Source: a virus. From it: a stretch of 64,000 bases of DNA. The stretch covers positions 1 through 64,000 of IMG/VR virus record IMGVR_UViG_3300036795_000108; one strand, 5' to 3'. A program made the position numbers and the translations under genes. The notes below the pieces were generated by a model. The model made no database searches. It worked only from the letters and a program-made list of their open reading frames with translations, and was not told where the DNA came from. Within the stretch, counting starts at the first letter, position 1. Every line of letters begins with the position of its first letter. Shown here in pieces: positions 2,713 to 33,337 of the stretch.

Positions 2713-3194
2713 CAGTCGTCCTTTCGTGGGTTCCCCCGTTCGGGAGGGGCACATGCGTGAGTATAACGGAGGATTCGGACGGACGGCAAGATCCCGTCTA
2801 AGGCTACCGCCGCCACCACCCGCGGGACGAGGCCCGCAAGCGCCGCGCAGAGGCCCAGCGTTCCCGCGAAAACCCAGTTCCAAGCGGAGCCGTCACCGAG
2901 CGCGTAGACGAGATTCCGGGCGAACAGCAGCACGAAGACGATCGTCTCAGCGAAAACCAAGCGCCGGTCCCGGCGCCGGTCCCGGCGAGCGCGGCGCAAC
3001 GCGAGATGGACCCCCCGGGCGATCGCCGCGTCATCATTCGCGAGCGCGCCCGGAGCGACCTCCTCCCGCGCCAGCAAGACCGCGACGACGCCCTCCGAGC
3101 GCAGGTCAAAGCTCCCGGCGCCCAAGTCATTAGCGACCGTCCCGTCATGCGCGACGCCATCCTGCCCGAAACGGATGTCGCGCCCAACCGGCAT
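2712..3194 (-). CDS. Two-TM membrane protein
   Basis: 160 residues. The N-terminal 70 residues look soluble (VGRDIRFGQDG, DLRSEGVVAVLLARE). A basic stretch (RRARRDRRRDRR) is followed by two hydrophobic segments, LVFAETIVFVLLFARNLVYA and a second ending GLVPRVVAAVAL, consistent with inner-membrane anchoring. The ATG at 3194 shares TGATG with the end of the preceding frame. The last codons cross the promoter at 2759 and overlap the next start. Role unknown. Confidence 0.6.
   Translation of the reverse strand: MPVGRDIRFGQDGVAHDGTVANDLGAGSFDLRSEGVVAVLLAREEVAPGALANDDAAIARGVHLALRRARRDRRRDRRLVFAETIVFVLLFARNLVYALGDGSAWNWVFAGTLGLCAALAGLVPRVVAAVALDGILPSVRILRYTHACAPPERGNPRKDD
2759..2768 (-). promoter_or_regulatory. 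CGTTATACTC promoter element, copy 1
   Basis: Minus-strand TATACT with a TTGCCG 18 bases upstream, a good sigma70-type pair. It lies inside the 3' end of the upstream membrane-protein gene and drives the gene starting at 2712. Confidence 0.7.
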
Positions 3195-3498
3195 CACGCA
3201 GACCGCGGAGTCAGCTCGCGCGCCTTGACCCACGCGGCAACCTCCATCCCGCACGCCGCCTTACCGAAGTAGTAGCGCGGGAACCATCCGCAAAATCGAC
3301 GGTCAGGACACGCGGATCGGTCTGGTCGACCTTGACGATGAACCGGCCCCGGTCGCAGTAGGGCGGCCGGATCTCGATCGACACGCGGCACTGCTCGAAC
3401 AGCAGGTCCACGTAGGTGCCGTGATCCTCCATGCTGACGTCCGGGAGCAGTGCCCGAACGCCGGTCCTGACGAACGCGAGTTCTGTCGCAGCGCTCAT
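3194..3498 (-). pseudogene. Hypothetical gene with apparent one-base frameshift
   Basis: The N-terminal frame from the ATG at 3498 reads as a credible protein through RFIVKVDQTDPRVLTVDFA. It then turns into Arg-rich shadow sequence. In the next frame the sequence resumes convincingly as WFPRYYFGKAACGMEVAAW and ends at 3194, exactly where the next gene starts (TGATG). One missing base between about 3270 and 3290 would join both halves into one protein of about 100 residues. This is either a sequencing or assembly error or a true mutation. Function unknown. Confidence 0.55.
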
Positions 3499-3509
3499 CG
3501 ACCGCTGCG

Positions 3510-3638
3510 TCAGCTAGTCGCGGTCGTCGGACTCGCGAACTCCGAAAGCACCTGCGGCGTCGCCGTATCGAACCCGACGACGTCGAGCATCCCCGGATCC
3601 CGCGGATCGGCGATCGAGAACCCATTGCTGACCAGCAC
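3510..3638 (-). CDS. Possible small protein (42 aa)
   Basis: A GTG-started ORF (VLVSNGFSIADPRDPG...) filling the space between two genes. It encodes a plausible peptide with FDTATPQVLSEFASP. The ribosome site is weak, so it is uncertain. Confidence 0.35.
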   Translation of the reverse strand: MLVSNGFSIADPRDPGMLDVVGFDTATPQVLSEFASPTTATS

Positions 3639-3646
3639 CCGTCAGT

Positions 3647-3862
3647 CTAGCTAGGTTCCCCGTCCCTGTCGACCGCGTCCGCACGGATCATGCCCGCCCC
3701 GCCGCACGAGTAGCCAGCACCATCCTCCCACGGCACCCACGGATGATTCTCACACACCAGTCCGCCGCCCTCGGCGATCCGCTCCTGGATGTCGTTGCTC
3801 GCGCCCGGGTACGCCTCGCAGATCACATCCGCCCGGTTGACGTTCCTGCCTATTTGCGTCAT
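3647..3862 (-). CDS. Small Cys-containing phage protein
   Basis: 71 residues with the pattern CEAYPGAS, then CENHPWVPWEDG and CGGAGM. This type recurs in actinophage genomes; its function is unknown to me. The ATG at 3862 overlaps the TGA of the preceding gene. Three cysteines and a histidine could bind a metal. Confidence 0.7.
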   Translation of the reverse strand: MTQIGRNVNRADVICEAYPGASNDIQERIAEGGGLVCENHPWVPWEDGAGYSCGGAGMIRADAVDRDGEPS

Positions 3863-4035
3863 CACACGTCCCTCAGTCGTTGCGGGTTGTGCGGGAAGAA
3901 CGCCTTCATGATCTGGACCGGCGTGTAGGGCAGCTCGTCGCGGTGCTCAGCACACCAGTGCAGGACCTGCCGGTTCGTTGTTCCGTCAAGGGGGGCGCCG
4001 TGCTCCTCAAGGATCGCGATGAGCGTCGATCTCAT
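3862..4035 (-). CDS. Small hypothetical protein (57 aa)
   Basis: Starts MRSTLIAILEEHGAPLDG and looks helical with a Trp-Cys pair (LHWCAEHRDELPY). It overlaps the upstream small gene by 29 bases and the downstream one by TGATG. The composition is normal for a compact soluble protein. Function unknown. Confidence 0.55.
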   Translation of the reverse strand: MRSTLIAILEEHGAPLDGTTNRQVLHWCAEHRDELPYTPVQIMKAFFPHNPQRLRDV

Positions 4036-4153
4036 TCGATGCGATGTCCGCCGCCTTGAGATGGATGTCAACGCGGCGCAGCCACTCGGCGAAGTCGGCC
4101 CACGGGATGTCCTCGTGATTGGACGTGGTCTGGGTCCTAAGCATCGGAGCCAT
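4007..4153 (-). CDS. Small hypothetical protein (48 aa)
   Basis: Starts MAPMLRTQTTSNHEDIPWAD and continues FAEWLRRVDIHLKAADIAS, an amphipathic helix-like stretch. It lies between two good genes, in frame with neither. Its 3' end overlaps the next start by 29 bases. Function unknown. Confidence 0.5.
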   Translation of the reverse strand: MAPMLRTQTTSNHEDIPWADFAEWLRRVDIHLKAADIASNEIDAHRDP

Positions 4154-4189
4154 CCGGGTTGCGGGAGCGAATGGCCTTCAAGTTGCTGA

Positions 4190-4480
4190 TCACGGCCAGA
4201 TCCCCTCATAGGTATCAACGATGCGTTGGGCAATCTGCTTGACGGGCGTGCAGCGACCGTCAACCTCCCACGCCTCCAGCACCTGCGTAGCGCGGCGCAC
4301 GGGCTCGTCATCTGCGTCAGCGTCGAACCAATGAGCGACGACTTCACGCGTCGCTTGGTTGCCGCCCTTCAGTGGGTAGTACGTGCATGGCCAAGAACAG
4401 GAGAGCCATCCCGCAATGCCTGTAAGCAATTCGCTGCGGGTCCGAAGCGACGAGCTTTCGCTATTGCCTGAATGCGTCAT
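4190..4480 (-). CDS. Hypothetical protein (96 aa)
   Basis: The start at 4480 follows GGAGGGGCG and overlaps the upstream stop as ATGA. The middle (LSCSWPCTYYPLKGG) is Cys/aromatic rich. The C-terminal part (VRRATQVLEAWEVDG, IAQRIVDTYEGIWP) is helical. No domain recognised. Confidence 0.65.
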   Translation of the reverse strand: MTHSGNSESSSLRTRSELLTGIAGWLSCSWPCTYYPLKGGNQATREVVAHWFDADADDEPVRRATQVLEAWEVDGRCTPVKQIAQRIVDTYEGIWP

Positions 4481-4779
4481 CGCCCCTCCACCAGGGCGCG
4501 CATCGCTGCCCGTCCCTCGGGTGACCTCGCCCACTGGTCGCTCTCCTCTTTCGTCGCGTCGAACTCACCGGCGATGACGCGCTCGGCGAGCGCCATAGCT
4601 GTCGGGAGCATCAGGCTGCGCAGTTCATGGACGAGGAGATGCTCGGGCATCGCGTGCGGCGACTTGAAGTCATGGAACTCGTCTCAACGGGCGCGGACCG
4701 CGAGATCGCGGAAGCCCACCGCGTTCAACTCCTTCGCCAGTCGCTCGCTGCTCGGCTGGGGGCTATAGGAATGACTCAT
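4477..4779 (-). pseudogene. Conserved small phage gene interrupted by an in-frame TGA
   Basis: From the ATG at 4779 the frame reads MSHSYSPQPSSERLAKELNA up to LAVRAR, then a TGA at 4684-4686. It continues in the same frame as DEFHDFKSPHAMPEHLLVHE and ends VIAGEFDATKEESDQWA...VEGR at 4477. The two repeated (G/D)EF segments and the MPEHLLVHEL piece fit one known actinophage small-protein pattern, so a single gene of about 100 codons is likely. TGA is used as an ordinary stop elsewhere, so general recoding is excluded. Point mutation, read error or readthrough remain possible. Confidence 0.6.
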
Positions 4780-4952
4780 GAGCGCCTGCTCTCCGGCAGA
4801 CTGAGGCGCCATCCGGCCTCAAGAACCGATCGTGCGGCCGCGCAGAGACACTCGTTGCCGTTCGCATGGTGCTCGAGCGCGTACTCGATCGCGTCACGCG
4901 CCGTCTTCAGCCGATCGCTGTCACTTTGCTCGGGACGCGACTGCTCGGTCAT
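4776..4952 (-). CDS. Small hypothetical protein (58 aa)
   Basis: MTEQSRPEQSDSDRLKTARD start, followed by AIEYALEHHANGNECLCAAA. Mostly helical, with a Cys pair. Start and stop overlap both neighbours (TGATG at 4952, ATGA at 4776). Function unknown. Confidence 0.6.
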   Translation of the reverse strand: MTEQSRPEQSDSDRLKTARDAIEYALEHHANGNECLCAAARSVLEAGWRLSLPESRRS

Positions 4953-5209
4953 CAGGCTTCCTCTCCACGCTTGGGGGCTCCATCGGAGGTAGCTCCGACC
5001 GGAGGGATCGGCGGGTGGACGCGTCGAAGGCTCAGGATCTCCGGGTCAAGCAGGTTGCGGTCAGGCCACTTCCGGGCCACACCGAACGCACCCTCAGGAT
5101 CATGCTCGGCCTGCTGCTCGGCCACGTCGAACGTCCGCCTGTCGAGGATGGTCCCGGGCCACGCAGCCGAGTAGTCAACCCACGCCACGACCTCCCACCG
5201 CTCGGTCAT
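4952..5209 (-). CDS. Hypothetical protein (85 aa)
   Basis: Starts MTERWEVVAWVDYSAAW. An N-terminal beta-strand rich part precedes a Pro-rich tail (RRVHPPIPPVG). Operon member with four-base overlaps on both sides. No domain recognised. Confidence 0.6.
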   Translation of the reverse strand: MTERWEVVAWVDYSAAWPGTILDRRTFDVAEQQAEHDPEGAFGVARKWPDRNLLDPEILSLRRVHPPIPPVGATSDGAPKRGEEA

Positions 5210-5394
5210 GGCAGCTTCCGGACTCCGGTGATCTTGAATCTCCCGGTCACACCGACGACCGGGAGCTCGTCAAGTTGCTGCTGGACGAGCTTCTGCGCAG
5301 CCTCGGGTGACTCCCCGTCCTCGACGTAGATCTCGGTCCCCCAATAACGATCGACGACCATGATCGTGACGCCGTAGTTGCGTTGCTCGGTCAT
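5206..5394 (-). CDS. Small hypothetical protein (62 aa)
   Basis: Starts MTEQRNYGVTIMVVDRYWG; alternating hydrophobic residues suggest a small alpha/beta fold (SPEAAQKLVQQQLDELPVVG). The ATG at 5394 overlaps the TGA of the gene upstream. Function unknown. Confidence 0.6.
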   Translation of the reverse strand: MTEQRNYGVTIMVVDRYWGTEIYVEDGESPEAAQKLVQQQLDELPVVGVTGRFKITGVRKLP

Positions 5395-5570
5395 GGGTTC
5401 ACGCTCTCCCACCACACACCAACGCGCTCGGCCCCGTCGAACACCTCGACGACCCGGAACGGTCGAGACAGAAGAAACACGACCGCCTCCCGCACCGAAC
5501 GCTGAACCGTCACGCCCCGCACATGCAAGCCGCCGGCATACCAGGCGTCATAGCCGAACCGGCGTCTCAC
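5391..5570 (-). CDS. Small hypothetical protein (59 aa)
   Basis: GTG-started ORF beginning RRRFGYDAWYAGGLHVRG, continuing with VREAVVFLLSRPFRVVEVFD. Its GTG overlaps the stop of the MihF gene (GTGA) and its TGA overlaps the next ATG. That double coupling and a natural composition make it a credible gene. Function unknown. Confidence 0.6.
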   Translation of the reverse strand: MRRRFGYDAWYAGGLHVRGVTVQRSVREAVVFLLSRPFRVVEVFDGAERVGVWWESVNP

Positions 5571-5914
5571 GACCGCTCGAAGTGAGCGACGATCGCGTCC
5601 AAGTCCTCGCCCGACAGGACGTCGACATGCTCGGTGCCGTCCAGCCCCAACGGGGCGAGGATCTTCGCCGCGCGCAACGGCCCGACCTCCCGGACCGCCA
5701 TCAACAACTCCGCGACCTCCATCCGGCCGACGACACGCACCCCGCCGATCTCATCCGCGTCCGCGCCACGCGCCCCCTGGCGCAGCGCATCCCCCACCGC
5801 CATGTTCCCGGAGTGGATGCTCGCCTTGACCGCCGCGCGCGCCTCACGGGCCTGCAGGGCGTGCTCAAGGCCACGCTGCGTCTCCTCCTCGGTCAACTCA
5901 TGCCGGTCGGTCAT
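5567..5914 (-). CDS. MihF-type integration host factor homologue
   Basis: 115 residues. An N-terminal helix with AREARAAVKASIHSG leads into a compact helix-two-turn-helix region: VVGRMEVAELLMAVREVG, PLRAAKILAPLGL, SGEDLDAIVAHF. The same order is found in the actinobacterial integration host factor (MihF/sIHF), which binds and bends DNA. The start at 5914 follows GAGGACTGAC. Likely roles are nucleoid shaping, site-specific recombination or transcription control of the phage. Family assignment is strong; the phage role is inferred. Confidence 0.8.
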   Translation of the reverse strand: MTDRHELTEEETQRGLEHALQAREARAAVKASIHSGNMAVGDALRQGARGADADEIGGVRVVGRMEVAELLMAVREVGPLRAAKILAPLGLDGTEHVDVLSGEDLDAIVAHFERS

Positions 5915-5915
5915 G

Positions 5916-6344
5916 TCAGTCCTCCTCATCGTCCTGGGCCCTAGCGGGCCGGTTCGGGAATACCGGCGGCATCGCGACCGTCGGCTGCAACACCTCCGTC
6001 AACTGGTCCTGGGTGTTCGGCGCATCCTCCTCGTTCCGGGTCCTCGTCGCCGGCACGCTGGTGGCTTGGATCGAGCCCTCGTAGACAAACCGGGGGACCT
6101 GCCCATGCTCCCGATCCACCATCGCGTTGAAGTCGTCCAGCGGCCTCAGCCAATAGCCGATGTCAGAGAAGCTGAGCAAGGAACCCGGTGTGAGAGGCCG
6201 ATAGACGACGTGGATCTCGCCCTGCAACGTCGGGCCGGGACTCAGGTCGAGCTTGACCAGCGTGTGCTCAACGATGCCCAAGCCGAGAACCTCATACTCG
6301 CCGCCCTTGTAATGCCGGTAACGACCGGGGCCCTGATAGGCCAT
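5916..6344 (-). CDS. DUF1653-domain protein
   Basis: 142 residues. Residues 5-75 hold GRYRHYKGGEYEVLGLGIVE, VVYRPL and a WLRPLDDF segment, which match the DUF1653 pattern (a small beta-barrel of unknown function found in bacteria and phages). The remaining tail is Pro/Glu rich and probably disordered. The start at 6344 follows GGAAGGATAGAG and lies 30 bases downstream of the CGTTATACTC promoter at 6373. It heads the small-gene operon running left to the methyltransferase end. Confidence 0.75.
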   Translation of the reverse strand: MAYQGPGRYRHYKGGEYEVLGLGIVEHTLVKLDLSPGPTLQGEIHVVYRPLTPGSLLSFSDIGYWLRPLDDFNAMVDREHGQVPRFVYEGSIQATSVPATRTRNEEDAPNTQDQLTEVLQPTVAMPPVFPNRPARAQDDEED

Positions 6345-6372
6345 CTCTATCCTTCCGAATCCGGGTAGCGGC

Positions 6373-6382
6373 GAGTATAACG
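6373..6382 (-). promoter_or_regulatory. CGTTATACTC promoter element, copy 2
   Basis: Minus-strand TATACT in the space between a hairpin and the DUF1653 gene. Only a poor -35 (GGGACG, 17 bases away) is visible. Confidence 0.65.
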
Positions 6383-6411
6383 CGGCGCGAAACCCACGTC
6401 CCCGGAACGAC

Positions 6412-6435
6412 CAAGACCCGCCGAAACGGGCCTTG
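6412..6435 (-). terminator. Hairpin after the HTH gene, possible terminator
   Basis: Nine-base arms (CAAGACCCG and CGGGCCTTG on the plus strand, one mismatch) around a six-base loop. The following T content is weak. It sits between the end of the HTH gene and the next promoter. Confidence 0.4.
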
Positions 6436-6466
6436 GCGCGACCGGATCTCTCTCGCCCTTCGCAGT

Positions 6467-6706
6467 TTACAGGCCCTCGGGGCTGCGAGGAGTCGTCTTG
6501 CGGACAAGCTCGTCCAGGTTCGCCTGGGAGAATCTGCGCTGCCCACCGGGCGTCCGATACGACCGCAGGTAGCCCATGTCAGACCACCGCCGGACCGTCC
6601 CCAAAGACACGCCAAGCTGCTGGGCCGCCTGGCCGACGGTCAAGCCGAACGGCGGGTCGACGCGGTGAGTGGTCCGGCTGCCGCTCGCTCCGCTGGAAGG
6701 ACTCAA
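6467..6706 (-). CDS. MerR/excisionase-type helix-turn-helix protein
   Basis: 79 residues. The core LTVGQAAQQLGVSLGTVRRW, then SDMGYLRSYRTPGGQRRF, is the winged helix-turn-helix shared by BldC-like regulators and phage excisionases. The apparent start is TTG at 6706, seven bases after the upstream stop, with AAGGA further back. Such proteins serve either as excisionase partners of a tyrosine integrase or as transcription regulators; the sequence does not decide between them. Confidence 0.75.
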   Translation of the reverse strand: MSPSSGASGSRTTHRVDPPFGLTVGQAAQQLGVSLGTVRRWSDMGYLRSYRTPGGQRRFSQANLDELVRKTTPRSPEGL

Positions 6707-6711
6707 GACGA

Positions 6712-7437
6712 TCAGAGTTCCTTCTCGCCGTGGACGGCCACCTTCGCCACGGCCTCGTTGATCTGCACCCGTAGGCGACCGAAGGGCGCGGCGGCGGACG
6801 CCAGCATGTCGGCGGCCTCCTTGAGATTCGCGACCGTGGCGGGATCACTAAGCGCTCGCCGCATGTCCCTGAGATGCCGATCGAGCAACTCCAAGTCGTG
6901 CCGATCGACCAATGTCAGCCCGATCGGCGGCCGAAGTCTCGCCGCCGCGTTCTCCACGCTGGCTCTATCGTCGAGGTTCGCTTGCTGATGGCGATCCATT
7001 CCACCCTCGCAGGTGCGACCGAGCCCAATCCACACCACGTCGCACGGACTCGCCTCGTTCGCTCCATGCTCGTCAGCGATGCACGAGTGGACGTGGACAT
7101 CCTGCGGCCCGTAAGGACCGAAGCACCACGACATCCCGTGCGGGGCATGTGTCATGCGCATCGAAGGGGGGTCCTGCGCATCAGAACCCTCCAACTGCGC
7201 TAGCTCTCGCTGGCCGCGCTCCGTCAAAACGGGCGTAGGCCCAATGCCCGTCCGTCCGGGCGGATATTCATCGATCAGTCCGCGCTTCACAAGCAGGACA
7301 CGGGTGCGGCTGTGAGGAGCGCGCTCACCGTCGATTCCCCAGCGGTACACGTCCTTACGAAGCTGCATCCGTCCCTCCCTCACAGCTCGAAGGATGCGGA
7401 TCACCTCATCGCGATCCAGATCAACCTTGGCTGGCAT
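6712..7437 (-). CDS. Hypothetical protein with winged-helix-like N-terminus
   Basis: 241 residues. The N-terminal 80 residues (RDEVIRILRAVREG, RVLLVKRGLIDEYPP, LTERGQRELAQLE) resemble a winged helix. The middle is His/Cys rich (MTHAPHGMSWCFGP, HVHSC). The C-terminal 90 residues are helical. The start follows AAGGAGG at good spacing and overlaps the small gene upstream by 17 bases. Function unknown. Confidence 0.65.
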   Translation of the reverse strand: MPAKVDLDRDEVIRILRAVREGRMQLRKDVYRWGIDGERAPHSRTRVLLVKRGLIDEYPPGRTGIGPTPVLTERGQRELAQLEGSDAQDPPSMRMTHAPHGMSWCFGPYGPQDVHVHSCIADEHGANEASPCDVVWIGLGRTCEGGMDRHQQANLDDRASVENAAARLRPPIGLTLVDRHDLELLDRHLRDMRRALSDPATVANLKEAADMLASAAAPFGRLRVQINEAVAKVAVHGEKEL

Positions 7438-7552
7438 TCAGTGCCCTCCTTCGCAAGCGCCCGACCAGGGACCCGACATAGACCTTTCCCGCGATGTGGT
7501 CGAAGATGATCGCCTCGCCGGGTTTGGGCATCGGCAGCGGCTTCTCAGCCAT
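7421..7552 (-). CDS. Small hypothetical protein (43 aa)
   Basis: MAEKPLPMPKPGEAIIFDHI start with GAGGAGGGACTGGG before the ATG. It encodes a basic tail (VGRLRRRAL). It overlaps the Cys-rich ORF in another frame over 115 bases, so one of the two may be spurious; the strong ribosome site favours this one. Function unknown. Confidence 0.55.
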   Translation of the reverse strand: MAEKPLPMPKPGEAIIFDHIAGKVYVGSLVGRLRRRALNASQG

Positions 7553-7680
7553 CCCAGTCCCTCCTCGTCCGGATGCAAGTCGCAGTTCGGGCACTCCGAA
7601 CGATCCTCATACGCCGGATCGATCCGCGTCGCCTTATGAGCGCCGGGATCCCACATCGTTCCGCACCGCCGGCACGTCAC
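7438..7680 (-). CDS. Zinc-ribbon-like small protein
   Basis: GTG-started, 80 residues. Residues 2-35 have CRRCG and CPNCD pairs, a clear zinc-ribbon arrangement. The last 40 residues (RRSSSTTSRERS...) lie over the coding sequence of the next gene and look like shadow sequence. A lost stop or a one-base error near 7555 would explain the tail. It overlaps the upstream Cys-rich gene by 47 bases. Confidence 0.5.
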   Translation of the reverse strand: MTCRRCGTMWDPGAHKATRIDPAYEDRSECPNCDLHPDEEGLGWLRSRCRCPNPARRSSSTTSRERSMSGPWSGACEGGH

Positions 7681-9427: not shown

Positions 9428-9437
9428 GAGTATAACG
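9428..9437 (-). promoter_or_regulatory. CGTTATACTC promoter element, copy 3
   Basis: Minus-strand TATACT preceded by GACGCTGCGT. No clear -35 at 16-18 bases. It lies between the terminase-small-like gene and the membrane-protein gene. Confidence 0.65.
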
Positions 9438-10647: not shown

Positions 10648-10694
10648 GGTCTGCCTTTCGTAGATGGGCGTGGTTCGGGTCACGCCGTACGCCT

Positions 10695-10704
10695 GAGTAT
10701 AACG
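10695..10704 (-). promoter_or_regulatory. CGTTATACTC promoter element, copy 4
   Basis: The best-formed copy: TTGACG, 16 bases, TATACT on the minus strand, upstream of the ASCH gene. Confidence 0.75.
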
Positions 10705-13293: not shown

Positions 13294-13683
13294 CTAGCCC
13301 CGCGAGTATAACGCGGGAACGTATCTCGTGTCCCATTGTTCGCGGTCGGTGCCCGTGACCCGCAGGAAGGCGCGTCGCACGCCCGGCGGGTAGGTGGCGT
13401 GTGGCCAGCCCGTCGCATCGGCGAACTGCGCGGACGCGACCTCCAGCACGACGCCGTCGGGCAGGCACTTCTCGACCCTGCCGAGCACATCCGTGCGCGG
13501 GCAGTACCAGAGATCGCCGGGCATCGCAGTCGCGGCACGCCAGCGAGCAAGATCGCGAAGCATCATCTGCCGGGGATGCAGGATGATCCACGCGAGCCGC
13601 TGCCGACGCGACAGGGCGCTCAGCAGAACGCCTTCCGGCACGTCCTGCATGACGCGCTGCGCCCAGTGTCCGAGGTGGCGCAT
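13294..13683 (-). CDS. Hypothetical protein (129 aa)
   Basis: Starts MRHLGHWAQRVMQDVPEG; contains LSRRQRLAWIILHPRQMMLR, LWYCPRTDVLGRVEKCLPDG and ends in DTRYVPALYSRG, which is encoded by the promoter element itself. The ATG shares TGATG with the JAMM gene stop. No domain recognised. Confidence 0.6.
   Translation of the reverse strand: MRHLGHWAQRVMQDVPEGVLLSALSRRQRLAWIILHPRQMMLRDLARWRAATAMPGDLWYCPRTDVLGRVEKCLPDGVVLEVASAQFADATGWPHATYPPGVRRAFLRVTGTDREQWDTRYVPALYSRG
13304..13313 (-). promoter_or_regulatory. CGTTATACTC promoter element, copy 5
   Basis: Minus-strand TATACT inside the last codons of the upstream gene, 49 bases before the collagen-like start. GGGACA lies 18 bases upstream. Confidence 0.65.
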
Positions 13684-16091: not shown

Positions 16092-16140
16092 GTGATGCCC
16101 TTTCGTAGATTCGAGCGGTTCGGGATCGCTCGCTACGCAA

Positions 16141-16150
16141 GAGTATAACG
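16141..16150 (-). promoter_or_regulatory. CGTTATACTC promoter element, copy 6
   Basis: TAGACG, 17 bases, TATACT on the minus strand, upstream of the DUF932 gene. Confidence 0.7.
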
Positions 16151-16986: not shown

Positions 16987-17349
16987 TCACCGCCGGCCCT
17001 TCCACCGCGAGGACTCCATCAAAACGCCCCGCTCCACATCCCGCTTCAACCACACCGTCCCCTGCGCCAACCTCGTGCCCGGCAAGCTCCGCCGCTCACA
17101 CCACTTCCCCACATTCGCCTTCGCGACCCCCAAAAGCTCCGCCGCCTCCTTCACCCCAACCGTCGCCGGCGGCTTACGACGCGACATCTCCCCGGCCGCG
17201 ACCCGGGTGACCGCCTCCGTCGCCCAGACCGGCCCGTTCGCCAACTCCAACACCGCCAGCCCCTTCAGCTTCTCGCGGACCGACCCGGGCCGCAACCCCA
17301 AGATCGCCGCCGCCTCCGTCCGCCCGACGACATCAGGGCCGCTACCCAT
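16987..17349 (-). CDS. Tandem helix-turn-helix DNA-binding protein
   Basis: 120 residues with two MerR/excisionase-type helix-turn-helix units: VVGRTEAAAILGLRPGSVRE at residues 7-26 and VGVKEAAELLGVAKANVGKW at 64-83. Basic segments surround both (SRRKPPA, ESSRWKGRR). It overlaps the upstream membrane-protein gene by eight bases. Likely a regulator or recombination directionality factor. Confidence 0.65.
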   Translation of the reverse strand: MGSGPDVVGRTEAAAILGLRPGSVREKLKGLAVLELANGPVWATEAVTRVAAGEMSRRKPPATVGVKEAAELLGVAKANVGKWCERRSLPGTRLAQGTVWLKRDVERGVLMESSRWKGRR

Positions 17350-17524
17350 CGTCGCCGAGCAGATCCCAGTCGCGTTCCTCCACCACGCTGAACAGGCCGC
17401 CGAACAGCAACACGACCCCGAACACGAACACCGGCCACGACACGACGGCAGACAGCACCGACACGCCCGCCAAGCCGAGCCCGACGACCATCGCGACAAT
17501 CCTCACCACGTCAAATCCTCTCAT
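17342..17524 (-). CDS. Small membrane protein, probably leaderless
   Basis: 60 residues. Two hydrophobic helices (VVRIVAMVVGLGLAGVSVLS and PVFVFGVVLLFGGLFSVV) precede an acidic tail (EERDWDLLGDDG). The ATG lies six bases after the -10 hexamer, with no room for a ribosome site, so the mRNA should begin at or next to the start codon. Function unknown. Confidence 0.65.
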   Translation of the reverse strand: MRGFDVVRIVAMVVGLGLAGVSVLSAVVSWPVFVFGVVLLFGGLFSVVEERDWDLLGDDG

Positions 17525-17529: not shown

Positions 17530-17539
17530 GAGTATAACG
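17530..17539 (-). promoter_or_regulatory. CGTTATACTC promoter element, copy 7 (leaderless)
   Basis: TATACT, CGGACG, ATG on the minus strand: start codon at the expected +1. Confidence 0.7.
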
Positions 17540-17547: not shown

Positions 17548-18051
17548 CTAGAACGCTGCCAACTGCTCGACCGGGGCCTGCTTCAGGCCATCCGCTGCGG
17601 TCACCGCCACGCCGAGCGCCTGCCAGCAATGACCCGTCAGACCGTACAGCGGACCCATGCCCGTCGCTTTGCGCCCGATCGCCTTGCTGTCCCCCCCGAA
17701 GCGGTCCACGAGCGCCTGGCGGACATGAGAGTCCTTAGCTGTCCCCGAATGGCAGAGATGATGCTTGACGTCCATCCGGGAGGGGCGCAGCGCCTCGGAA
17801 TCATCAACCAGTCGCCAGCGCTCCGCGAACCGCCCGGACCAGAACACCGTCTCGAACGTCTCCGAGCCGACCGGCTTACCGAAGCTCGTCACGCGCTCGA
17901 TCGCGATCCGCTCGCAGTCCAAGCCGTCGATCCGGTACAGCAGCCGCCAGTTATCGACCTTGTCCTCCCAGCTCACCGGCAGGCCCGTCTCGGTATCCAA
18001 GACGACGTAGGCCGAGATCTCATGCCCGGGATCGATCGCGAGCAGCAGCAT
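17548..18051 (-). CDS. RuvC-like Holliday junction resolvase
   Basis: 167 residues. An RNase H-like fold with catalytic acids in LLLAIDPGH (Asp 7) and IAIERV (Glu 52). A DSHVRQALVDRFGG motif near 107-120 carries the His/Asp pair typical of RuvC-type phage resolvases. It would trim branched DNA during replication or recombination before packaging. Like the gene downstream it starts six bases after a -10 box, so it is probably translated from a leaderless mRNA. Confidence 0.8.
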   Translation of the reverse strand: MLLLAIDPGHEISAYVVLDTETGLPVSWEDKVDNWRLLYRIDGLDCERIAIERVTSFGKPVGSETFETVFWSGRFAERWRLVDDSEALRPSRMDVKHHLCHSGTAKDSHVRQALVDRFGGDSKAIGRKATGMGPLYGLTGHCWQALGVAVTAADGLKQAPVEQLAAF

Positions 18052-18056: not shown

Positions 18057-18066
18057 GAGTATAACG
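18057..18066 (-). promoter_or_regulatory. CGTTATACTC promoter element, copy 8 (leaderless)
   Basis: TATACT, CCGGCG, ATG on the minus strand, at the start of the resolvase gene. Confidence 0.7.
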
Positions 18067-19074
18067 CTACGCAACCGCTCCCGCACGCAGCGGCTGGACA
18101 TCACGCTCCAAGTCATACAGATCCGCGACCGACCACACATCCTCGCCGGCGACCGTGACGACCACATCGCAGTTCAGGATCATCGCGTCGACCAACTCCA
18201 CCGAGACGCGGTCCTGGTCGCCGAACAGCACGCTCTGCAACCGCCGCGGGTTCAAACCCAACTCCGCCGCCAAACGGCCGGCGCTCAACTCGCTGCGGCG
18301 CCCATCACCCGACATCGTCCACAGGGCGCGCTGGATCGAGAACGCGAACAGCCACAGCCGACACGGCCCGCAGCCCACCACGTCCGGAGCGCCGGCACTA
18401 GCCCGCGCGACCCGCTGAGCCTTACGCTCGATCGTGAAGAACCCCGGGTCCTCAGCGATCTTCGCGGCACGCCACGCCGCGACCCTCGCCCGGTTACGCG
18501 CCCGAAACTCCTCCCCATCGGCACGCCGCGCATAATGCCGGCGCCCCGCCGCGCGCATCCGATCGCGCCACACCGCCAAGCGCTCAGGATCCTGACGGAT
18601 CCGCCGGTAGGTCGCCTGGCTCTGCGCCCGCACCCGATCGCGATGATCCTCGCGCCACCGCGCCAGCCGCCGCGACTCGCACACCCGGCAGCGCGGCACC
18701 CACGTCCGGGCGCGCCCATCCGACCGGCGGCCCATGCTCGTGAACTGCGACACCAACGGATCGTCATCAACCACCTTCTCCACTCCGCACCCCGCGCAGC
18801 GCTTCACCCGGACCGGACGGCCGTCGCGCATCACCATCTTGACCGTCACATACGGCGGCGGCACCGTCGGAGGGGCCGACAGCACCAGTTGCGTCGACAC
18901 CCCCAACGCCCGGGCTATCCGCCGGACCGCGCGAGCATCCAAGCCGCGCGTCCCATACTCGAAATCCCGCATGTACGTCCGGCACACCCCCGCCTGCTTC
19001 GCCATCTGAACCTGAGTGATTCCCTTCTCGCTGCGCATCTGCCGCAGCGTCTGAGACGCGCCGCCGACGCTCAC
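18067..19074 (-). CDS. XRE-type regulator with zinc knuckles and a second HTH-like region
   Basis: 335 residues. XRE helix-turn-helix at residues 10-60 (LRQMRSEKGITQVQMAKQAG then VCRTYMRDFEYGTRGLD). A Cys set follows: CAGCG near 84 and CRVCESRR near 115. A long basic region (RARNRARVAAWRAAK) and another Cys pair (GCGPC) come next. A C-terminal HTH-like stretch reads LSAGRLAAELGLNPRRLQSV. The GTG at 19074 follows GGGAGGGG and overlaps the preceding stop. It could be the lysogeny or early-gene repressor, but domain content is all that supports this. Confidence 0.65.
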   Translation of the reverse strand: MSVGGASQTLRQMRSEKGITQVQMAKQAGVCRTYMRDFEYGTRGLDARAVRRIARALGVSTQLVLSAPPTVPPPYVTVKMVMRDGRPVRVKRCAGCGVEKVVDDDPLVSQFTSMGRRSDGRARTWVPRCRVCESRRLARWREDHRDRVRAQSQATYRRIRQDPERLAVWRDRMRAAGRRHYARRADGEEFRARNRARVAAWRAAKIAEDPGFFTIERKAQRVARASAGAPDVVGCGPCRLWLFAFSIQRALWTMSGDGRRSELSAGRLAAELGLNPRRLQSVLFGDQDRVSVELVDAMILNCDVVVTVAGEDVWSVADLYDLERDVQPLRAGAVA

Positions 19075-21852: not shown

Positions 21853-21908
21853 GGATGCTGCACGGCGCCGTAGCGGGGAGGATTATCTGCGGTCTCCTGC
21901 GGCACTCC

Positions 21909-22030
21909 GACCTCCGTTGGGTTGGACTTTCCGTTCGTCCAAACCGGAGGTCTGTATAGTCAACCCCGGTTTGTGCTTGGCGGCGACGAACCTTAGCGAA
22001 CCCCGCAAGCGCTCTGCTTTGCGGGGTTTT
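21909..22030 (+). ncRNA. Candidate plus-strand small RNA or hairpin element
   Basis: Arms GACCTCCG (21909-21916) and CGGAGGTC (21945-21952), with inner TTGGAC/GTCCAA. TATAGT follows at 21955. A terminator lies about 40 bases further on. No plus-strand gene is near. If TATAGT is a -10, a transcript of about 65 bases ending at 22030 would result. Confidence 0.4.
21999..22030 (+). terminator. Intrinsic terminator, rightward
   Basis: Perfect ten-base arms AACCCCGCAA and TTGCGGGGTT around a ten-base loop, with TTTT at the end of the second arm. On the other strand no T-run follows. Confidence 0.7.
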
Positions 22031-22170
22031 CGCTATTTACGAGGTTTCCGGGGGGAGATCGACCGCGCCTGCACGCCCCTGTAGCGTTCGACGCGCAGCA
22101 CCTCTCCTCCCCGCGCCCGACCCTGGCCTCCCATCCTCCCGGGGTCGGGCGCAACCCTCACCGCCCAGAT

Positions 22171-27776: not shown

Positions 27777-27816
27777 GACGCCACCTCTTTCATAGGAACC
27801 TCTGCTCGGGAGCACA

Positions 27817-27826
27817 GAGTATAACG
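27817..27826 (-). promoter_or_regulatory. CGTTATACTC promoter element, copy 9
   Basis: TTCACA, 16 bases, TATACT on the minus strand; drives the recombination operon. It is divergent from the glycosyltransferase genes. Confidence 0.7.
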
Positions 27827-27991
27827 CAGCGCCAAGAGGTGTGAAGATCGAGACGCCGGACCGCGATCTGTTTTCTCGCTCCGAAGATGGCCCAGAACGA
27901 GCCCGAACAAGAACGGCTGGGTGGCCGCTCCGCCTACGAAAGGACATCGCGGTCCGGCAGTCTCAATCGCCGGGGAGGATACACGCTCCCG

Positions 27992-27997: not shown

Positions 27998-28004
27998 CCC
28001 CCGC

Positions 28005-28769
28005 ATGGACAGCGATCCGCGACTCGGATTCGTGATCGTCGACTGGAAGACCCCACGGCTCGCCGCGGCCTGCTCAGAGTCGATCCGGACGCTGCGCCCC
28101 CGCTCCGAGATCCTCACCGTCAACGCCGCCGGCGCGAGCCTCGGATACGCCCAAGCTCTCAACGCCGGGATCGGCGCGTTGTGCTCCGAGGCGGACGTCA
28201 TCGTCTGCCTGAACGCCGACACGCGGATGCTCGAAGCAGACGACGCGATCCTCGACCTGTTCGACCGCGACCCGGACCTCGCGATCATCGGCCCGCGGCA
28301 GATCAACGCCCGGCGCCAGATCGTGCATGGCGGGATCGTTCAATGGCCCGACGGCACCCCCTGGGATCTGGACCTGAGGCACCGCTGCTGGCATCAGCTC
28401 GTCGACCAGCCGCACGTCGACGCGCTTACCCGCATGACGTTCGAGGTCCCGACCGTCGCCGGCAGCGTCATCTACTGCCGGCGCCGTACCCTGAGCGCGC
28501 TCGGCGGCTGGCCGGAGTTCAGCCGCTACTACTACGAAGACACCGGCCTCTGCCTGCTGGCGCGCCACCACCAGCGCCGGGTCCTCTACACCGGCAGCGT
28601 CACCTGGGAGCACCTGCACGAGGGATCGCCGTTGCGTCGCAGCGTGCGGACGCACTTCATCACCAAGGCGACCGGCCAGTTCATCGCATGGAGCGCCGAG
28701 CAGGGCATCCCGCTCAACATCGAACCGGACGCGCAGAGAGTCCTCGCCCGGGATGCGGGAGTGCTGTGA
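28005..28769 (+). CDS. GT2-family glycosyltransferase
   Basis: 254 residues, the first of two coupled rightward genes. GT-A fold motifs: GFVIVDWKTPRLAA, then NAAGASLGYAQALNAGI, the CLNADTRML metal-site segment, VAGSVIYCRRRTLSALGGWP and YYYEDTGLCLLARHH. The order matches rhamnosyl-type GT2 enzymes that use nucleotide sugars. It lacks membrane segments. The acceptor could be host wall polymer, a virion protein or DNA; the sequence does not tell. Codon use is similar to its neighbours. Confidence 0.8.
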   Translation: MDSDPRLGFVIVDWKTPRLAAACSESIRTLRPRSEILTVNAAGASLGYAQALNAGIGALCSEADVIVCLNADTRMLEADDAILDLFDRDPDLAIIGPRQINARRQIVHGGIVQWPDGTPWDLDLRHRCWHQLVDQPHVDALTRMTFEVPTVAGSVIYCRRRTLSALGGWPEFSRYYYEDTGLCLLARHHQRRVLYTGSVTWEHLHEGSPLRRSVRTHFITKATGQFIAWSAEQGIPLNIEPDAQRVLARDAGVL

Positions 28770-29545
28770 GCGTCGGCGCGGAGGGCCTGAACCTCGTCGC
28801 GTCCGTCATCGCGCGAGACGAGCTGGCGAGATATCAACCCGCGCTCGTCCACCACCTGAGCGGCTGGGTTGACGAGGTCAGGGTCCTCGATGACTGCAGC
28901 ACCGACGGGACCTACCAGGCCCTCGAAGCGCTCGGGCCTAAGGTCCACGTCCAGCACATCCTCGGCGCGAGCGCGTGGGACATGTTCGGCGAAGGAGCCG
29001 CCCGGCAGCAGGCCCTCGAATGGGCGATGCAAGCCCGCCCGACACACGTCCTCCACGTCGACGCCGACGAGGTCATCCCGGACGGCAAGCTGCTGCGCCG
29101 CGCGATCCTGCGCAACCCCGACTGTGACGTGTTCACCCTGACGATGCGGGAGATCTGGAAGCGCGACGGGATCCCGTGGCAGGAACGCGTCGACGGGCAG
29201 TGGGGGCCGCGGGAATGCCCGATCCTATGGCGGGTGCCCGACTCTGCGCGGCGGACCGGGGAGCTACCCGATGGCTACAACATCCGGCCGGTGAAGCTCG
29301 CCAGCGGCCGGGAACCAGAGATCGTCGCGACGCTCGGCGCGTTCGGGGATGCGGTCCGCACCGGCGTGGACATTCTGCACTTGGGTTGGAGTGACCCGGC
29401 GGAGCGCCGGCCCCGGTATGACCGGTACATGCAGATCGACGGGGGTGAGCATCACGCGTCCGAGCATCTGCTGTCCATCATCGAGCCGCCCGAGCTTGAG
29501 CCCTACCCGGCGCATCACGGCGTGCTGGGGTCTTCTACCTCATAG
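28766..29545 (+). CDS. GT2-family glycosyltransferase, second copy
   Basis: 259 residues. Opens VASVIARDELARYQPALVHH and has VDEVRVLDDCSTDGTYQALE and the VLHVDADEVIPDG metal-binding Asp set. This is the type in which the sugar-binding DDCSTDGT and DADE motifs are standard. The GTG overlaps the previous stop (GTGA). Its 3' end overlaps the opposite-strand gene by 31 bases. Distinct in sequence from the first enzyme, so they probably add different sugars. Confidence 0.8.
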   Translation: MSVGAEGLNLVASVIARDELARYQPALVHHLSGWVDEVRVLDDCSTDGTYQALEALGPKVHVQHILGASAWDMFGEGAARQQALEWAMQARPTHVLHVDADEVIPDGKLLRRAILRNPDCDVFTLTMREIWKRDGIPWQERVDGQWGPRECPILWRVPDSARRTGELPDGYNIRPVKLASGREPEIVATLGAFGDAVRTGVDILHLGWSDPAERRPRYDRYMQIDGGEHHASEHLLSIIEPPELEPYPAHHGVLGSSTS

Positions 29546-29811
29546 GCCGCGCCGCGTGCGACATGCTCGCCGCCGGCTGGAAGTTGGGACTCTCCGACCT
29601 TGCGGTACGCCACCGTGTCGGCGACATCCTCGTCCGCCTGCCTCGCATCCCACATCGCGAGAGCCTCCCCGTCGACCCCTTGGAGGACCAGCAGGTGATC
29701 TGGCAAGGGCCACGCGCGTTCCTCGCTTGGGATGGAGATCGTCTTCCCCGCGAACGGGTCGTCTTGGAAGCGGAGCAGAAACCCGCGCGGATCCAAAGCA
29801 GTCATCGTCAT
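29515..29811 (-). CDS. Hypothetical protein (98 aa)
   Basis: Starts MTMTALDPRGFLLRFQDDPF and has ERAWPLPDHLLVLQGVDGEA. Compact alpha/beta look, no named family. Convergent with and overlapping the second glycosyltransferase gene. Function unknown. Confidence 0.55.
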   Translation of the reverse strand: MTMTALDPRGFLLRFQDDPFAGKTISIPSEERAWPLPDHLLVLQGVDGEALAMWDARQADEDVADTVAYRKVGESQLPAGGEHVARGAAYEVEDPSTP

Positions 29812-29813
29812 CG

Positions 29814-30629
29814 TTATTCCTTTTCTGTTTGTTGCTTCACACCGTTGACGTAGTCAAGGGCATGCTGGCCACTGCCGAAGTAGAAATCGCGCCAGCCATC
29901 CTCACTCCATCGCAGGCCCCCGATGCCCGTGCGGAGCGCGTCGACTGCCAAGTCCCACCGCTCCTGATCGCTGAGGTCGTACCAGACATCCCAGTCCCGC
30001 GCGTCGGGGTCGTCGCCCTCAACGCGATCGGCAGGATCGCGGACGCCGATCAGCGGCGGTATCCACGTCTTGCCCTCGAACGCGACGTAGGCGTTCGGGA
30101 ACGACTCGCAGACGCTGTAGCTGGTGACGACGATCTCGCCGGCGCGGAGCACGCGACACGCCTCGCGCCAGCCGGACGGGTAGTCGCCGTGGCCCTCGCG
30201 GAACACGCTGGTCTTGAACCCATCCTCGATCAGGCCGGCGATGAACTCGCCGTCCTCGGGCTCGACGTAGCCGTGGATCTCGCACTGGCCGTGGACGCGG
30301 GCGGCGAGCGCCATAGGCGCCGAGCCGACGCGCAGACAGGTATTGAGAACTGTCGCGAAGATCTCCTCACCATCGGCAAAGTGCTGCGGCCCGCAGCTCT
30401 GGAGAAACATCTCGAACTCGTGGTCAATCTGGTTTCCCCAGCCGGAGTGCTGCTGGTGAGCAGTGTCGTGGATGTAGTGGTCTGACGGGACCAGCGCCAC
30501 CTTCTCCTCGCTGCGGAGTATCCCGAAGATCCCGGCCGCGAAGTGGTTGCAGAGCTGCCCCATGTAGGCGCGTTCAGTCCCGTAGACCTCGACAGTCTCG
30601 GTGGGGGTGTGGAAGTAGATCCGGCTCAT
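29814..30629 (-). CDS. Conserved actinophage protein of unknown function
   Basis: 271 residues. MSRIYFHTPTETVEVYGTER, then LCNHFAAGIFGILRS and VALVPSDHYIHDTAHQQ recall a protein often seen in actinophages. It also has FATVLNTCLRVGSAPMALAA, AGLIEDGFKTSVFREGHG and WTWRD-like WDVWYDLSDQERWDLAVDAL. No catalytic motif is obvious. It overlaps the next gene by ATGA. Confidence 0.7.
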   Translation of the reverse strand: MSRIYFHTPTETVEVYGTERAYMGQLCNHFAAGIFGILRSEEKVALVPSDHYIHDTAHQQHSGWGNQIDHEFEMFLQSCGPQHFADGEEIFATVLNTCLRVGSAPMALAARVHGQCEIHGYVEPEDGEFIAGLIEDGFKTSVFREGHGDYPSGWREACRVLRAGEIVVTSYSVCESFPNAYVAFEGKTWIPPLIGVRDPADRVEGDDPDARDWDVWYDLSDQERWDLAVDALRTGIGGLRWSEDGWRDFYFGSGQHALDYVNGVKQQTEKE

Positions 30630-30775
30630 GAATTAGATGACGGCGGCGGCGACTTCTTCTCGTAGATCGGCACCCACGTCAACCCCGGTCCCGCAGGTGG
30701 CTGGCCGAACTTCGCAGGCCACCACTTACCGGTCCCAACAAGCCGCCACCCCTTCAGATACCTGGGAGTGGTCAT
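30626..30775 (-). CDS. Small hypothetical protein (49 aa)
   Basis: MTTPRYLKGWRLVGTGKWWP then AKFGQPPAGPGLTWVPIYEK and a Ser/Pro tail. Overlaps both neighbours by four bases. Five Trp in 49 residues. Function unknown. Confidence 0.6.
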   Translation of the reverse strand: MTTPRYLKGWRLVGTGKWWPAKFGQPPAGPGLTWVPIYEKKSPPPSSNS

Positions 30776-31017
30776 TGGCAACCGTGCGACTCGGCAAGTC
30801 GCGCTCGGGCGAACTCGCGGTTACGCTCACCCTCCAAGGCGTCGCGAGCAGGCTCCTCCGACTCGGCGGCCGCCAACACCTGCTCCGCGAGCATCAACGC
30901 CGCCTCGCGCTGATTGACCGGGGATCTGCTATTCAGCACCCGCTCGGCCAGCAGCGACCAGACCGACGGGATCAGGACACGCCCATCGCGTGTCACCTCC
31001 GGACGAAACGACTTCAT
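30772..31017 (-). CDS. Small hypothetical protein (81 aa)
   Basis: MKSFRPEVTRDGRVLIPSVW, then helices (VNQREAALMLAEQVLAAAES). Coupled to both neighbours. Function unknown. Confidence 0.6.
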   Translation of the reverse strand: MKSFRPEVTRDGRVLIPSVWSLLAERVLNSRSPVNQREAALMLAEQVLAAAESEEPARDALEGERNREFARARLAESHGCQ

Positions 31018-31244
31018 AGTCCCATCTCCATCGGGTCGAGTTGGCAGGCGGTCGACGCGCAGTCGAACACCCCATGCGTCCGGCAGGGCGGGGTGCCTTG
31101 GTCATCGTAGGAGCACACCGAGCCGTCCGGGCAGATGATCGTGATGGAGCCGTCCGGGCTTGGGATGATCCGTAGGGACGCGCCTGTATAGGCCAGCGAT
31201 GTCTCCTCGATCCGGGCGTCCTGCTCATGGGTCGTAAGGCTCAT
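31014..31244 (-). CDS. Small hypothetical protein (76 aa)
   Basis: MSLTTHEQDARIEETSLAYT, then beta-rich LRIIPSPDGSITIICPDGSV and a CRTHGVFDCASTAC cysteine set. Coupled to both neighbours. Possibly zinc or disulfide stabilised. Confidence 0.6.
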   Translation of the reverse strand: MSLTTHEQDARIEETSLAYTGASLRIIPSPDGSITIICPDGSVCSYDDQGTPPCRTHGVFDCASTACQLDPMEMGL

Positions 31245-31459
31245 CAGGAATCCTTCGTCTGCGTTGGATACGCGCAGAAGTCGCCGGTCGGATCGACCCG
31301 CACATAGATCCCCGCGGCCGTGGACTCTCCGCAGTGGCAACACCGTCCGGTCGGGGGGGCGAGGATGCCTATTGGCTCGCGTCCGGGTTCGTTGATGAAC
31401 TCGGGCCAGCACCTAGTGCAGAGAGGCTGCGTCCAGCTAAAGCGTTGCTCAGGGGCCAT
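31244..31459 (-). CDS. Zinc-ribbon small protein (71 aa)
   Basis: MAPEQRFSWTQPLCTRCWPE, then CCHCGESTAAGIYVRVDPT. The CxxC...CxxC pair followed by G-IYVR-DP is a recurrent actinophage zinc-ribbon family. The start follows GAAAAGAGGATTTG. The promoter at 31506 precedes it by about 50 bases. Confidence 0.7.
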   Translation of the reverse strand: MAPEQRFSWTQPLCTRCWPEFINEPGREPIGILAPPTGRCCHCGESTAAGIYVRVDPTGDFCAYPTQTKDS

Positions 31460-31505
31460 CAAATCCTCTTTTCGTAGGGGCGCCTGTTCGGGAAGCGCTC
31501 CGCCT

Positions 31506-31515
31506 AAGTATAACG
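31506..31515 (-). promoter_or_regulatory. CGTTATACTT promoter element, copy 10
   Basis: Minus-strand TATACT; the only copy that differs from the ten-base consensus (last C is T). ATCACA lies 17 bases upstream. Divergent from the rightward operon. Confidence 0.65.
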
Positions 31516-31536
31516 GAGCGTCAAGCGGATGTGATG

Positions 31537-31542
31537 TAGGCT
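31537..31542 (+). promoter_or_regulatory. Possible rightward -10 box
   Basis: TAGGCT, six bases, ATG: the same leaderless geometry as on the minus strand. Confidence 0.4.
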
Positions 31543-31548
31543 CCCGCC

Positions 31549-31785
31549 ATGCCGAAACTCTGGACCCCACCAGCGGAGCCCGAACTCGAGCTAGGGCGCC
31601 GGCCCGGCATCCGCTTCAACGTGCCCGAAGCGCAGTTGCGCGCCGCGGTCCGGCAGCAGGCTGCGGCCGAGCAGATCCGCGCCGCCGAAGAGATCACCCG
31701 CGCTACCCGCCGTGCAGCCAAAGCCGCGAAGCGTAAGGCGCACGCGGTCGCTCGCAAACGCGCCCAGCTTGAGCGGCAGCGGTGA
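31549..31785 (+). CDS. Small basic helical protein (78 aa)
   Basis: MPKLWTPPAEPELELGRRPG then a long Ala/Arg helix (EQIRAAEEITRATRRAAKAA). First of four rightward overlapping genes ending in a glycosyltransferase. Could be a coiled coil or DNA-associated protein. Function unknown. Confidence 0.6.
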   Translation: MPKLWTPPAEPELELGRRPGIRFNVPEAQLRAAVRQQAAAEQIRAAEEITRATRRAAKAAKRKAHAVARKRAQLERQR

Positions 31786-31994
31786 TGCGCCCCCGAGCTG
31801 CCCGGTCGATCGTGCGGTGGATCTCCGCCGCGATGGACCGCAGCTACGCCGCCTACCTCGACAACCACGAGGAGCTGTCGCAGTCCTGGGCTGCTGTCTT
31901 CCGCTGGCGCCAGCGAGTTGGTCTGAAGCTCGCGGTCGTGATTGACCGTGACGCGGCGTTGGATCAGATGGCGAACGAAGGGTGGTGGGGATGA
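31785..31994 (+). CDS. Small hypothetical protein (69 aa)
   Basis: MRPRAARSIVRWISAAMDRS, then YAAYLDNHEELSQSWAAVFR and WRQRVGLKLAVVIDRD. Helical, Trp rich. TGATG overlap with the gene before. Function unknown. Confidence 0.6.
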   Translation: MRPRAARSIVRWISAAMDRSYAAYLDNHEELSQSWAAVFRWRQRVGLKLAVVIDRDAALDQMANEGWWG

Positions 31995-32215
31995 GACAGA
32001 TCCCGCCGATGCCCAAGATCCCGGCCGACTACACGGCCCTCATCACCACGCACGACGGCTGGTGGTTCCGCTACACCGTCACCCGCCACCACGGCATGTT
32101 CAACCTGGAGCGCACGCACAGCCATCACCGCACACTACGCGGCGCACGGCGAAGCGCCCGACGGTGGACGGCTCGCAATGAGACATCCGAGCCGCAGGTC
32201 GTGGAGTGGACGTGA
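31991..32215 (+). CDS. Small hypothetical protein (74 aa)
   Basis: MRQIPPMPKIPADYTALITT then HDGWWFRYTVTRHHGMFNLE, His/Arg rich. ATGA overlap upstream, GTGA overlap downstream. Function unknown. Confidence 0.6.
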   Translation: MRQIPPMPKIPADYTALITTHDGWWFRYTVTRHHGMFNLERTHSHHRTLRGARRSARRWTARNETSEPQVVEWT

Positions 32216-32949
32216 CGGTCCCGCTCGTCATCGCCTGCCCCGCGTACCGTCGAGCTTGGATTCTCCCGAGGTGGTTTGACTCGGTCCAGGCCCAGCACCC
32301 GCCGGACGGAACGCGCTACGTGTTCGCGCTCAGCTACGACGAAGACGGCCGGGATCCCGACGGGACCGCCGCGGTGATTCAACAACGATGCCCCGCCGCG
32401 GAGATCCTCGACGTGCCCGGCATCGGCTTCGAGGACTCCGAACGCGACAGCGAGCACCGCTACGCCTACCTAGCCGACATCCGCAACCGGCTGCTGCGGA
32501 TCGTCGCGGCCATCGGACCGGCCTACTACCTGAGCCTCGACAGCGACATCCTCATGCGCCCAGACGCGCTCTCCGCCCTCCTGCGGGCCGCAGACGGCAG
32601 GGGCGCAGTCGGCGGCCTTATCGACATGGGAGGCGCCCAGATGCCCGGACACTGGTCCTGGATGCACCTCGACGGCGACGACGCCTACCGCTCCAACCAG
32701 AGGGTCCCGCTCGCGACTGACTGGCCCGGACCGATCGGCGAGAACGAGGCGATGCCGCAACTCCCCAGTCGCCTGCGGGTCGGCGTCATCATGGGCTGCA
32801 AGCTGATGAGCCCCAACGCCTACCGCAACGCCCGCTACGCCGACCACGTCGACGGCGAAGACGTCGGCTGGGCAATCCAAGCCCGTGCGATGAACGTGCC
32901 GCTCTGGCTCGTCCCGGCCGCCCGAGGCGAGCACATCCTGCGCTACTAG
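32212..32949 (+). CDS. Glycosyltransferase, GT-A fold
   Basis: 245 residues. VPLVIACPAYRRAWILPRWF opens the fold. YYLSLDSDILMRPDAL holds the DxD metal site. VIMGCKLMSPNAYRN and a DHVDGEDVGWAIQARAMNVP acceptor-side motif follow. It resembles GT2/Anp1-like enzymes that take nucleotide sugars. The GTG start overlaps the preceding stop. This is the third glycosyltransferase of the window and the second rightward group. Acceptor unknown. Confidence 0.75.
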   Translation: MTVPLVIACPAYRRAWILPRWFDSVQAQHPPDGTRYVFALSYDEDGRDPDGTAAVIQQRCPAAEILDVPGIGFEDSERDSEHRYAYLADIRNRLLRIVAAIGPAYYLSLDSDILMRPDALSALLRAADGRGAVGGLIDMGGAQMPGHWSWMHLDGDDAYRSNQRVPLATDWPGPIGENEAMPQLPSRLRVGVIMGCKLMSPNAYRNARYADHVDGEDVGWAIQARAMNVPLWLVPAARGEHILRY

Positions 32950-33293
32950 GCCACGCGGCTGTCGGCATGCTCAGCCAGCGCCCGCAGACGCTCGGCCAGT
33001 AGCAGCGCCTGACGTCTGGTCAACTCGCCGCAACGCTTGTCCTCCGACCACGGCGGCGCCGCCAACCCCAGCCACAGCGACCGGGCCGACACCAATCCCA
33101 TCCGCCTCGGCCACGACATCACGTCGAGCGCGCGGACGTTACGCAGCTCCGCGGGGGCCTGCTCTAGCAACTCCGCGACCATCCGCAGTCCCGCCGGCCG
33201 CGACGCCGCACGGACACGATGGTGATGGCGGGCCTGCAGCTTGCGCGCCCGCGTCGCCTTATCGAACGACGGGACTCTCCTCAAGTCGACCAT
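32946..33293 (-). CDS. Hypothetical protein, possible H2TH-like helices
   Basis: 115 residues. MVDLRRVPSFDKATRARKLQ, a basic helix, then RNVRALDVMSWPRRMGLVSA and ELTRRQALLLAERLRALAEH. The last two helices recall the helix-two-turn-helix of MihF-type proteins, but Gly and spacing are not convincing. It follows GGAGGAGGAAATG and the promoter at 33328, so it is the first leftward early gene. Confidence 0.5.
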   Translation of the reverse strand: MVDLRRVPSFDKATRARKLQARHHHRVRAASRPAGLRMVAELLEQAPAELRNVRALDVMSWPRRMGLVSARSLWLGLAAPPWSEDKRCGELTRRQALLLAERLRALAEHADSRVA

Positions 33294-33327
33294 TTCCTCC
33301 TCCTCCGCAGGGAGATCATAGGCCGAG

Positions 33328-33337
33328 GAGTATAACG
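33328..33337 (-). promoter_or_regulatory. CGTTATACTC promoter element, copy 11
   Basis: Minus-strand TATACT directly downstream of the hairpin that closes the late block. No clear -35. Confidence 0.65.

Follow-up and report, generated by a model that had tools for sequence, protein, structure and literature searches.

The first 64,000 nucleotides (nt) of the 87,221-base virus record IMGVR_UViG_3300036795_000108, hereafter the window, carry a short repeated element, CGTTATACTC, ahead of a series of leftward genes. The window has ten exact copies and one with a changed last base (CGTTATACTT, at 31506), every one of them reading on the minus strand; a motif search returned all 11 coordinates, the orientation and the altered base as given in the initial annotation. 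The remainder of the record was also scanned for the element, and two further exact minus-strand copies (73841 and 77994), which bracket a small group of genes lying between the terminase and the portal, bring the total to 13. Nine bases are identical in 13/13 copies. The excess over random sequence is large, since 12 matches with at most one mismatch were found in the window against 1.07 ± 1.08 in 100 shuffles of it, none of which reached 12; the twelfth match is a one-mismatch site on the plus strand at 39169. Over the full record, a third-order Markov model predicts 0.012 minus-strand occurrences of CGTTATACT, and 13 are seen.

Placement of the element is equally regular. All 13 copies stand upstream of leftward genes, as had been claimed for those in the window, with a start codon 5-50 nt downstream, and a called minus-strand start lies within 50 nt of each of them, compared with 7% of random positions. 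Eleven of the 13 are fully intergenic, whereas the intergenic fraction of the record is 9%; genes were called with a home-made codon-usage script, so that boundaries are approximate, and at least the integrase was missed by the caller. The earlier observation that the late block is free of the element also stands, with no copy between 34.1 and 72.9 kb, a span that takes in the larger part of the structural block. Among the products of the genes behind the elements are DUF1653, ASCH, fibre-like and DUF932 proteins, a RuvC-like resolvase and several unknowns, and we call these genes early from gene content only.

Within the window, the copy at 2759-2768 stands 46 nt upstream of the ATG of gene g6 (2712), that at 6373-6382 precedes the DUF1653 gene (start 6344), and that at 10695-10704 precedes the ASCH-domain gene (start 10647). 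The next ones serve a collagen-repeat/tail-fibre-like gene (element 13304-13313, start 13255), the DUF932 gene (16141-16150, start 16091), g57 (27817-27826, start 27776), a 71-residue open reading frame (31506-31515, start 31459) and g68 (33328-33337, start 33293). Strong hairpins that could be terminators stand out upstream of the copies at 6373 and 33328, and a strong upstream hairpin is also found at 10695; a general terminator-promoter boundary was considered and dropped, because such hairpins do not stand out at every site. The copy at 27817 is divergent from plus-strand glycosyltransferase genes, and the interval between them contains a 21-nt inverted repeat (86%; 27855-27958), one arm of which overlaps TACGAAAGG.

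The anatomy of the element supports the view that the leftward non-structural genes have one promoter core in common at their starts. TATACT, which conforms to the -10 rule TANNNT, is present in 13/13 copies, and it is preceded in 13/13 by CGT, which conforms to the S-R-N (often CGN) rule for the preceding bases. All 13 TATACT hexamers of the 87-kb record lie inside the element, and TATAAT does not occur at all. Outside the element, TATANT is absent from the minus strand, and the sole intergenic candidate with a spaced TTGAC is on the plus strand. The unusual feature of this genome is that, in effect, it shows no other clear type of promoter. The four -35-like hexamers named in the initial annotation are present: TTGACG at 10695 (spacer 16), the best of them, TTGCCG at 2759 (18), TAGACG at 16141 (17) and TTCACA at 27817 (16). 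Across the 13 elements, agreement with the -35 consensus is slightly above random (40 matches vs. 34.2 ± 2.9, P about 0.03). The proposed partial conservation just upstream holds for two positions, a C five bases (10/13) and a C three bases (12/13) before the element, and for nothing beyond them.

At three of the 13 sites (9428, 17530 and 18057) an ATG follows TATACT by exactly 6 nt, a shared offset with P = 6e-4, or 0.007 once about 12 possible offsets are allowed for. With TATACT at -12 to -7, the A of this ATG would fall at +1, which is a leaderless arrangement. The ATG opens the gene itself at two of these sites: that at 17524, after the element at 17530-17539, is in frame with g43, and that at 18051 starts the RuvC-like resolvase, its element (18057-18066) adjoining the stop codon of the XRE gene g45. 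After the element at 9428-9437, the ATG (9422) opens a seven-codon frame whose stop overlaps the ATG of g28 (9402).

We favour, with a probability of roughly 0.68, the reading that the housekeeping sigma-A polymerase of the host, probably an actinobacterium, recognises the element as the core of promoters that do not depend on a -35. In this scheme CGT would form the extended -10 region and TATACT the -10 itself, with the conserved C as the base that follows it. The 13 copies would start separate leftward transcripts supplying the non-structural genes, with transcription predicted to begin on the A of the ATG at two or three sites, while at four others the leader would open with a hairpin followed by a GAAAGG-type ribosome-binding site. 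Start-site mapping in Mycobacterium tuberculosis has found a TANNNT -10 and no -35 motif, with SRN before 49% of -10s, CGN in 45% of those, and 26% of genes leaderless (PMC3898074). The element fits this rule, and it resembles the housekeeping promoters of that species in its CGT before TATACT, its weak or missing -35 and its leaderless geometry at two to three sites; unlike their loose TANNNT, however, the phage has 13 copies identical at nine positions (PMC3898074).

A further parallel comes from bacterial chromosomes. A genome scan first led us to a Rhodanobacter gene, which we take from its sequence, rather than from any tool, to be ribF, and 30 orthologues (loci L220-L249) were then fetched by protein, not by motif, an identifiable start being required. 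TATACT stands at -12 to -7 from the ATG in 30/30 of them, accompanied by C-15 (29/30), G-14 (28/30), T-13 (24/30) and C-6 (24/30), while the flanks have diverged. A core like CGTTATACTC is thus near-invariant at the leaderless position, and a conserved -35 is not evident. These loci show that a core of this kind is conserved ahead of a chromosomal gene where no phage infection is involved. The phage record itself, which may be incomplete, gave no match to Sigma70 region 2, and for region 4 weak sub-cutoff matches only. Given the norm in M. tuberculosis, the Rhodanobacter core and the missing region 2, a phage sigma factor or activator is not needed to account for the element.

Several points weigh against sigma-A recognition. 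Nine invariant bases exceed what sigma-A demands: it tolerates TANNNT, so that a set of 13 promoters ought to include some with TATAAT, TAGAAT or TATGAT. Host identity is itself inferred. Rhodanobacter is of a different phylum and its 30 loci are related by descent; of two genomes in which the 10-mer was counted, the single one from Rhodanobacter holds just two copies. Moreover, the collections searched yielded no related phage in which conservation of the element could be tested.

The strict invariance would be explained if one phage repressor bound CGTTATACTC at all 13 promoters, the motif then being promoter core and operator at once and silencing the non-structural genes in the lysogen. 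We regard this as unlikely, though it is the most credible of the alternatives. The record encodes a tyrosine integrase (58545-59228, minus strand, within the structural block), from which the phage is probably temperate; this lends some plausibility to the overlapping operator suggested in the initial annotation, as a prophage would have to keep its many scattered promoters shut. The cluster A repressors offer a model, since they act as monomers on asymmetric sites that lie in one orientation (PMC9283540), and several helix-turn-helix (HTH) proteins are encoded here, including those of the XRE gene at 18067-19074 and of excisionase-like genes at 6467-6706 and 16987-17349. None of these was identified as a dedicated repressor, however, and the -10, the extended -10 and the next base already account for all invariant bases, with just two C residues beyond them. 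Nor is there a copy away from a gene start. The same placement speaks against the comparison with stoperators made in the initial annotation: the element is asymmetric and oriented with transcription, as cluster A stoperators are (PMC9283540). Stoperators, however, also occur at a distance from promoters, in short intergenic gaps, and all sites of the element lie at gene starts and have promoter anatomy, and none was found elsewhere in a stoperator-like position. There was also no near-consensus L5 site. With GGTGGMTGTCAAG, which we assumed as the cluster A consensus, no match was obtained at up to one mismatch, and 12 with exactly two (both strands), a number reached by 1.25% of permuted patterns. 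If a repressor does read the core, the phage would have a compact, one-motif means to silence its prophage.

The initial annotation took the fixed -10 with a weak -35 to suggest, besides an overlapping operator, an alternative sigma factor or a phage-specific activator. A phage-encoded factor of this kind (a divergent sigma, an activator or an RNA polymerase modifier), directing the polymerase to CGTTATACTC after infection and so defining a phage regulon, would suit the very uniform core, the weak -35, the many unknown early proteins and the want of another recognisable promoter class. That last point cuts both ways, as the factor would first have to be made from some other class of promoter, and none is evident. 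CGN-TANNNT without a -35 is, moreover, ordinary for sigma-A in M. tuberculosis (PMC3898074), and against a divergent sigma stand the missing region 2 and the weakness of the region 4 matches, two of which fall in early genes that score better on HTH_17. We consider such a factor improbable, somewhat more so than a repressor. Far less probable still is a signal that acts in translation or is otherwise tied to gene starts, like the start-associated sequence (SAS) of cluster K mycobacteriophages, a kind of repeat that the initial annotation also brought up. All copies do precede start codons, and the SAS is likewise a short asymmetric repeat, mostly in one orientation, before non-structural genes; it is, however, 13 bp long, includes the ribosome-binding core and stands 3-7 bp from the start codon (PMC3203893), whereas the element stands at a distance that varies between 5 and 50 nt and is followed at most sites by a separate ribosome-binding site. 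The SAS consensus GGGATAGGAGCCC has no match in the window at up to two mismatches.

The nearest precedent lies in cluster O mycobacteriophages such as Corndog, for which 8-9 SigA promoters are predicted, most leftward and four inside a long leftward block (PMC4351075). The likeness lies in the several, mostly leftward promoters, some of them leaderless with +1 on the start codon. One Corndog promoter, in contrast, is TGTCAA-17-TAGAAT, with a -35, and a single fixed core is not reported in the section that describes these promoters (PMC4351075); such a core sets the present phage apart. The core is common to all 13 sites, while the -35, the spacer, the leader and the leaderless state vary, which makes these promoters a clean natural set for finding out which features a promoter lacking a -35 requires when the host is GC-rich. 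Their positions also mark where operons begin, a ready aid for a phage that has no close known relative.

The likely host is an actinobacterium. The closest protein relatives of the DUF932 protein, the primase/helicase and the terminase are largely from actinophages, though distant; AAAGGA and GAAAGG are found at start sites but TAAGG never is, a preference that the motif list of the gene caller could bias; and an Rv2525c-like domain is encoded in a lysin-like gene. Related phages sought in IMG/VR and among GenBank phages through DUF932, the RuvC-like resolvase, the terminase and the primase were distant mosaics only, none with the element upstream. Scans of IMG/VR for the element with CCCGAAC, for the element with ATG and for GCTCCGTTATACTC returned what appear to be chance single matches, and no second array was present in the loci examined.

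Four of the leaders (2759, 10695, 16141 and 31506) share a constant CCCGAAC between complementary arms of 5-6 pairs, with stems that differ from copy to copy, and this hairpin is followed by ACGAAAGG or ACGAAAAG. The stems are GGCGTG/CACGCC (6 bp, about 10664-10685) and CGAGCG/CGCTCG (6 bp, about 16109-16133), both with CCCGAAC as the loop and TACGAAAGG after it, GCGCTT/AGGCGC (about 31479-31500), again with loop CCCGAAC and then TACGAAAAG, and CCCCT/GGGGG around CCCGAAC (about 2732-2750), then CACGAAAGG; all four are on the minus strand. In the 2759 leader, single-sequence folding favours another pairing. CCCGAAC occurs 42 times in the record and has such arms in 4/4 leaders vs. 2/38 occurrences elsewhere (Fisher, 1.3e-4), a comparison framed after the leaders had been seen. 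Degenerate forms may be present in the leaders at 27817 and 77994. An Rfam search at gathering thresholds gave no match.

Most of what a scan of IMG/VR for CCCGAAC with TACGAAAGG returned came from a single family of freshwater phages (loci such as L100, L119, L101 and L113; G+C about 0.46), which we treat as a lead only. In this family a hairpin of about 10 pairs lies in the leader of a 193-residue gene, with compensatory changes and a constant loop containing CCCGAA, and is followed by TACGAAAGG; it resembles the leaders described here, and it had no Rfam match in the loci searched. A similar layout to that of sites 10695 and 16141 is seen in a 58,260-base record (L126), where a gene for a Streptomyces phage Samy-like recombination directionality factor has a leader consisting of CATAACT, AGGCGTA, a hairpin, CATCTACGAAAGG and the ATG.

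Two observations concern other parts of the window. The intergenic stretch 21907-22035 carries, on the plus strand, TATAGT (21955) and a GC-rich hairpin with a T-run (AACCCCGCAA/TTGCGGGGTT, 21999-22028), and is a candidate for a small RNA or an antisense transcript. One small protein of the early region, represented by the members of alignment A1, matches the Ro60 vWA domain with an E-value of 5.9e-12.

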